This document shows, piece after piece, positions 47,012 to 47,170 of a DNA stretch of 64,000 nt. The position numbers and the translations under genes are program-made. The notes beneath the pieces are model-generated. The model saw only the letters and a list, made by a program, of their open reading frames with translations, did not search any database and had not been told where the DNA came from. Source of the stretch: Streptomyces griseochromogenes (GTDB lineage Bacteria > Actinomycetota > Actinomycetes > Streptomycetales > Streptomycetaceae); contig NZ_CP016279.1 in the NCBI RefSeq assembly GCF_001542625.1, forward strand, positions 10,664,001 through 10,728,000, in the 5' to 3' direction. Position 1 is the first letter of the stretch; each line of letters opens with the position of its first letter.

Positions 47012-47170
47012 AGACCTACTCCCTACGCCGGCATTACCCGGTAACAGGTTCGGCGGTCGACGCAGCGGTTTCCGTCTGCCGATGTTTCCCGTGAAACGTC
47101 GTTCCACGTGAAACATCGCGAATACGGAGGTCAGCGCCCTCTCAGCCCGGTGCTCCGAGCTCCCGCGTGT
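47012..47170 (-). ncRNA. TPP riboswitch (THI element) controlling thiC, containing two parS-like sites
   Basis: Minus-strand leader of thiC. The hallmark GGGCTGAGAGG lies near 47145, and GAACCTG...GTAATGCCGGCGTAGGGAGT (47016-47054) forms the 3' half with P4/P5. The ribosome site GGGAG lies in that arm, so ligand binding would mask it. Between the two conserved parts the variable P3 region is about 80 nt and contains a long hairpin (47080-47118) made from two parS-like sequences. TAGCGT at 47185-47190 on the minus strand may be the -10 element. Confidence 0.93.
47084..47114. promoter_or_regulatory. Two parS-like sites within the TPP riboswitch
   Basis: GTTTCCCGTGAAAC (47084-47097) and GTTCCACGTGAAAC (47101-47114), each with one mismatch to GTTTCACGTGAAAC, spaced 17 nt apart. 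In the thiC leader RNA they form one nested hairpin: CGATGTTTC/GAAACATCG outside and CGTGGAAC/GTTTCACG inside. Confidence 0.75.

Follow-up and report, generated by a model that had tools for sequence, protein, structure and literature searches.

A probable origin-region parS site in the P3 arm of the Streptomyces thiC TPP riboswitch

Can one stretch of DNA carry the binding word of a chromosome segregation protein and also fold, once transcribed, into a structural arm of a regulatory RNA, and if so, at which of the two levels is it kept? The question is raised by a 64,000-nt window of Streptomyces griseochromogenes (GCF_001542625.1, NZ_CP016279.1 positions 10,664,001-10,728,000, forward strand; "the window" hereafter denotes this whole stretch), in which two parS-like words lie within the leader of thiC. 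The features concerned, in window coordinates, are as follows.

45226..47010, minus strand: thiC coding region, 594 codons (ORF; NCBIfam ThiC equivalog; relatives in 80 named loci)
47003..47176, minus strand: TPP riboswitch aptamer (RF00059) with a long P3 insert (Rfam 40.2 bits; conserved segments)
47051..47139, minus strand: P3 arm insert of 89 nt, between GCTGAGA and AACCTG
47080..47118, minus strand: RNA stem of the two sites with their CGAT/ATCG flanks (outer helix 9 bp, inner 8 bp, loop 3 nt)
47101-47114: parS-like site 1, the earlier of the two in the RNA, GTTCCACGTGAAAC on the plus and GTTTCACGTGGAAC on the minus strand (with an unaltered CACGTG core; relatives conserve this copy)
47084-47097: parS-like site 2, the later of the two in the RNA, GTTTCCCGTGAAAC on the plus and GTTTCACGGGAAAC on the minus strand (the copy decaying in relatives)
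47019-47024, minus strand: AGGGAG in the aptamer 3' strand, candidate ribosome-binding site, 8 bases before the thiC start

Two parS-like words in a thiC leader

The ORF at 45226-47010 is named ThiC by NCBIfam with 980.6 bits against a cut-off of 650. Before it, on the minus strand, stand both conserved halves of a TPP riboswitch (GCTGAGA ... AACCTGTTACCGGGTAATGCCGGCGTAGGGAG), with the CUGAGA and ACCUG...GGGUAAUGCCGGCGUAGGGA segments of this class, and the aptamer precedes a thiamin gene, ending at the thiC start codon. RF00059 aligns to the leader along its full length (model positions 1-105 of 105); the score, 40.2 bits (E 2e-6, 601 bases searched), stays under the gathering score of 54.3, probably because of the P3 insert. 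The thiC-leader riboswitch was missed by an Rfam search of the window at the gathering threshold, and a genome-wide Rfam TPP search, with 150 of 351 first-look candidates scored, returned three other TPP matches and not 47003-47176. Long P3 arms can therefore escape the standard TPP model. The window also holds an Rfam match to the small RNA Scr3920 (53305-53430, minus strand, 149.5 bits). AGGGAG is likely the ribosome-binding site of thiC; its place in the aptamer 3' strand, so close to the start codon, makes control of translation start likely.

Sites 1 and 2 each differ from the parS consensus GTTTCACGTGAAAC by a single mismatch. They belong to a dense local population: the window contains 10 parS-like sites with at most three mismatches where 0.82 are expected, a number reached in 0 of 100 shuffles. 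Genome-wide, 22 parS sites have at most one mismatch, and all lie within about 210 kb of the two contig ends, which look like the origin region of a record that has been rotated. The best ParB_N match (123 bits) is also near the contig ends, 48 kb from the thiC leader, so that the arm sites are clustered with parB in this apparent origin region.

The first-pass annotation had described two ParB-binding-like sites in the P3 region of an intact thiC TPP riboswitch, pairing in RNA as a nested hairpin with an outer helix of 9 bp and an inner one of about 8 bp. Both descriptions hold: sequences, coordinates and the one mismatch per site are as given, and a fold of the window leader returns the same helices (9-bp outer, 8-bp inner, 3-nt loop). 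The fold alone is nevertheless no evidence, because near-identical palindromes pair almost by construction, and we rejected it as support for an RNA role.

Other parS words in the window also share their DNA with something else. A perfect parS at 36721-36734 lies in the first codons (MFHVKP, taking the listed TTG start) of an ORF for a CydD/CydC fusion (33224-36736, minus strand), and perfect parS at 36758-36771 and 61372-61385 form the tips of longer, terminator-like inverted repeats with 8 and 10 further base pairs, respectively. Flanking complementarity of at least 8 bp was seen at 11 of 200 non-thiC parS in the fetched loci. To judge from these sequences, hairpin-borne parS may be more widespread.

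Recurrence and history of the arm site

A TPP core pattern/3' segment with at most two mismatches was matched in 227 of 229 same-genus genomes. The arms were compared in 145 leaders, which among the matches listed comprise 30 loci and 115 further genomes drawn from 120 regions (five regions repeat genomes); the leaders of G050, G112, G150 and G198 were left out of this set. A parS with at most one mismatch lies in the P3 insert of 76 of the 145 leaders, 11 of them with a perfect word, where base composition gives a chance of about 3e-6 for such a site in 90 positions. The best match in the other 69 leaders has at least five mismatches, and none falls at two to four; one same-genus leader with a two-mismatch arm site (G352) is outside the 145. 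Holders include Streptomyces murinus, S. antibioticus and S. catenulae, and the thiC leader of S. cirratus is without an arm parS. A family-wide search for a parS-like word before the P3 anchor found one in 19 of 38 same-genus genomes and in 0 of 112 genomes of 16 other genera. A short-armed TPP-type match was present in 111 of these 112, by a pattern that is blind to long arms and counts the TPP switches of other genes too.

Altogether 172 parsed leaders (the 145 set, named loci, the window and repeats) yielded 160 distinct inserts, among which 57 have one site, 23 have one site and a copy with two or three mismatches, 8 have two sites with at most one mismatch and 72 have none; the 57 one-site inserts divide into 34 long ones with a further decayed copy and 23 short ones. 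The first-pass annotation had asked whether the parS pair and its mutual pairing are conserved in aligned leaders, and the answer is divided. The single parS recurs (76/145) and pairing is kept, but the intact double site is rare (8/160 distinct arms), and a paired double site is not the rule. The plainer version of its proposal, a tolerant region in which parS accumulated, fits, as arms lacking parS hold other hairpin-like inserts of 26 to 74 nt.

Two arm forms can be distinguished. The S form has one site in an insert of 71-73 nt, and the D form has an insert of about 88-106 nt with site 1 and a second, often decayed copy. We placed them on a tree of 140 thiC genes, taken from the 172 leaders where at least 1500 nt of thiC were present and with duplicates dropped, whose rows comprise 65 leaders without a site, 19 S and 56 D. 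Presence and absence of the arm site change five times on this tree: 69 holders fall in one well-supported clade, beside five leaders without a site, and six S leaders fall in a second clade. A single clade of holders was rejected with p-AU 1e-5 (52 rows picked from the 140, 24 vs 28), and gain, loss and recombination fit alike. The letters around the site are common to both holder groups, and suggest common ancestry or transfer.

The words in the arm differ from those nearby. Among 96 arm sites with at most one mismatch (distinct inserts), GTTTCACGTGGAAC occurs 41 times, GTTTCACATGAAAC 28, the perfect word 12, GTTTCACGGGAAAC 11, GTTCCACGTGAAAC three times and GTTTCACGCGAAAC once, so the CACGTG core is altered in 40 (28 CACATG, 11 CACGGG and 1 CACGCG). 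The 201 neighbouring parS of 121 long loci comprise 120 perfect words, 76 of GTTCCAC type, two CACGGG, one CACGCG and two others, with CACATG in none. GTTTCACATGAAAC is present in 34 of the 121 genomes, thiC sites included, and in 12 genomes picked from its holders the CACATG variant occurs 44.9-53.1 kb from thiC. S. griseochromogenes carries a CACATG-type parS at contig position 10759192, 59 bp from the ParB_N match of parB. An intact CACGTG core is important for ParB in Pseudomonas aeruginosa, according to PMC4368675, so core-changed arm sites may bind ParB less well.

Constraint on the DNA word and on the RNA hairpin

If RNA pairing alone were at work, both sides of the hairpin would be expected to be equally constrained. 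In D arms they are not: 55 of 56 keep site 1 within one mismatch of parS, and 8 of 56 do so for site 2 (in the leader L155 the roles are swapped, and site 2 is the parS instead of site 1). Two-site statistics were taken from 51 in-register D arms, with L006, L188, L199, L213 and L230 excluded as out of register at site 2. Parsimony assigns 25 changes to site 1 and 71 to site 2 in these arms, and at the ten paired positions 12 and 35, respectively (p 0.001). This asymmetry indicates that the DNA word is kept. In the 19 S arms, similarly, 4 changes fall in the 14 parS columns and 17 in 8 flanking columns. The signal is not purely one of parS, since GCGAT, 5' of site 1 and outside the 14-mer, is conserved as strongly as site 1; base preferences at position -1 of other parS (T 0.56, A 0.01) indicate that the ParB motif may extend into the flank. 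A skew in orientation of the GTTCCAC/GTGGAAC variant in the arm (42 vs 3) was dropped as evidence because a site about 8 kb away is equally skewed (44 vs 1); in both places the skew probably reflects common descent.

The RNA level was assessed by covariation, against simulations that keep the tree and the make-up of each column. In the 51 arms the pair of site 1 position p10 with site 2 position q3 (A-U 22, G-C 18, G-U 9, A-C 2) was exceeded in 0 of 1000 simulations, the pairs at p14 and p18 in 5 of 1000 each, and the sum over site 1/site 2 pairs in 12 of 1000; covariation at the remaining site 1/site 2 pairs did not stand out. Departures from Watson-Crick pairing favour G-U over A-C, with 44 against 14 events in the 51 arms (p 1e-4) and 26 against 3 inside the 14-mers (p 1.5e-5). 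Because a G-U on one strand corresponds to an A-C on its complement, the bias implicates the mRNA strand and argues against a cause in DNA only. Single-site arms, with 3 against 1, offer too few events to judge this bias, although the S-arm flank pair at -2 (A-U 13, G-C 5, C-G 1) was exceeded in 0 of 1000 simulations and the S-arm sum in 4 of 1000; the flanks of 175 other distinct parS are only about 40% paired at -1 to -3.

Pairing in bulk is high in D arms. The minimum-energy fold joins site 1 to site 2 in 54 of 56, and mean pairing over the 56 rows is 0.78, compared with 0.34-0.49 when the partners are slid. Summed over these 56 rows, however, the number of paired cells is not above the column-preserving tree null (149 of 500 simulations equal or higher), and total pairing was rejected as evidence for RNA selection. 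The case for such selection in D arms rests on a few covarying pairs and on the G-U bias. Counts on all 56 D arms, inflated by the five out-of-register rows and replaced by the 51-row counts, had been 26 vs 98 for site changes, 13 vs 53 at paired positions, 0/1000 for p10, 4/1000 for p14, 17/1000 for the sum, and 55 vs 15 for G-U against A-C (34 vs 3 within the 14-mers). The earlier proposal of one DNA that reads both as parS word and as RNA arm is supported by the retention, in 76 of 145 leaders, of a site at most one mismatch from parS, and by the upkeep of its pairing through compensating and G-U changes.

Why a centromere site might live in a riboswitch arm

We consider it probable that the P3 arm of the thiC TPP riboswitch, a variable region, accommodates an origin-region parS, kept at both the DNA and the RNA level. 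About half of the Streptomyces-group genomes covered here carry the word in this arm, and evolution seems to guard it both as a DNA word and as an RNA hairpin. The P3 arm, tolerating extra sequence, would shelter a centromere site. In DNA the arm would be one of many parS at which ParB clamps load; in RNA the palindrome, alone or as a decaying duplicate pair, would make the arm hairpin. Since that hairpin leaves the TPP pocket untouched, the riboswitch could remain functional, its most likely mode being occlusion of the ribosome-binding site overlapping the aptamer 3' strand, presumably with no regulatory link between the two functions. A parS can live in the arm since any palindrome in DNA folds back as a hairpin once transcribed, which makes selection at the two levels compatible: ParB would keep the word of site 1, and the RNA would keep that site paired, be it to itself or to site 2. 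Duplication would have given the two-site form, one copy staying parS and the other drifting within the limits of pairing. Against a need for this parS, 69 of 145 leaders manage without it.

A regulatory connection would be a stronger claim. ParB loaded at the leader might hinder or time thiC transcription, or transcription might clear ParB, linking thiamine supply to segregation. The sites do lie inside the leader, some 74-104 bp ahead of the thiC start codon, site 1 is conserved in a large clade of the genus, and S. venezuelae ParB spreads up to 2.5-3 kb around parS, as PMC12511625 reports, so that thiC would be covered. Yet nearly half of the leaders (69/145) are without an arm site, and further parS stand close by (2.07 per 20 kb in 58 loci with an arm site vs 1.30 in 53 without), and we hold such coupling to be unlikely. 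We give no better prospects to a dual-purpose element, in which ParB loading and folding of the nascent arm would interact across a large Streptomyces clade, the segregation complex modulating thiC output or the reverse.

The opposite simplification, that a parS once landed in the arm, is unused by ParB now and survives as a hairpin kept for the RNA, draws on the excess of core-changed variants in the arm (40/96, vs 3/201 at neighbouring parS, namely 2 CACGGG and 1 CACGCG). A hairpin-only arm has no need of GTTTCAC, though, and none of the 145 leaders stands at two to four mismatches while the equally paired site 2 drifts freely; the CACATG variant, moreover, is found 44.9-53.1 kb from thiC in 12 genomes and beside parB in S. 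griseochromogenes. Such a relic seems to us improbable. Least probable is an origin of the covariation in DNA only, through quasi-palindrome correction that perfects inverted repeats and leaves no part for RNA selection. The arm is an inverted repeat by construction and its total pairing is not above the column null (149/500), both as this mechanism would have it, but correction gives perfect complements and no strand bias, whereas the observed departures (G-U 44 vs A-C 14) favour the mRNA strand, in a count that would also take in any mutational strand bias.

If an arm parS kept at both levels is the right reading, one sequence is seemingly held by a DNA-binding segregation protein and by an RNA structure, with signals that are separable by copies and strands. 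Through the arm site one can study directly how a gene-dense genome accommodates its centromere sites. The case also suggests that the P3 arm of a riboswitch can host foreign functions, and it gives warning that the standard TPP model can miss such long-armed switches. No parS-riboswitch link was found among the open-licence papers listed, judged by their titles or abstract openings, and the main texts of PMC4852455 and PMC12511625, on S. venezuelae ParB, make no mention of thiC; subscription S. coelicolor parS tables and supplements were outside the scope, so that our claim of novelty is limited to open-licence papers without supplements.

The element resembles known systems. It has the same conserved halves as the TPP riboswitch (THI element, RF00059), in the same place before thiC, with P3 as the length-variable part. 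Extended P3 stems are described for TPP riboswitches of fungi, Klebsiella and Serratia in PMC11683625 and PMC12632268; unlike these, the extension in the thiC arm holds the DNA-binding word of a segregation protein, and its Rfam score lies under the gathering threshold. With the parS of Streptomyces ParABS it shares the 14-bp palindrome and the cluster around parB, of which S. venezuelae has 16, later 17, ParB-bound members near oriC (PMC4852455, PMC12511625). Unlike other Streptomyces parS, the arm site is part of a structured regulatory RNA and shows compensation at the RNA level, and core-changed variants are commoner there than at neighbouring parS. The parS in coding sequence and at hairpin tips are likewise fitted to whatever else the DNA encodes, but their second function is a protein or, probably, a terminator, and in the thiC arm it is a ligand-binding RNA.
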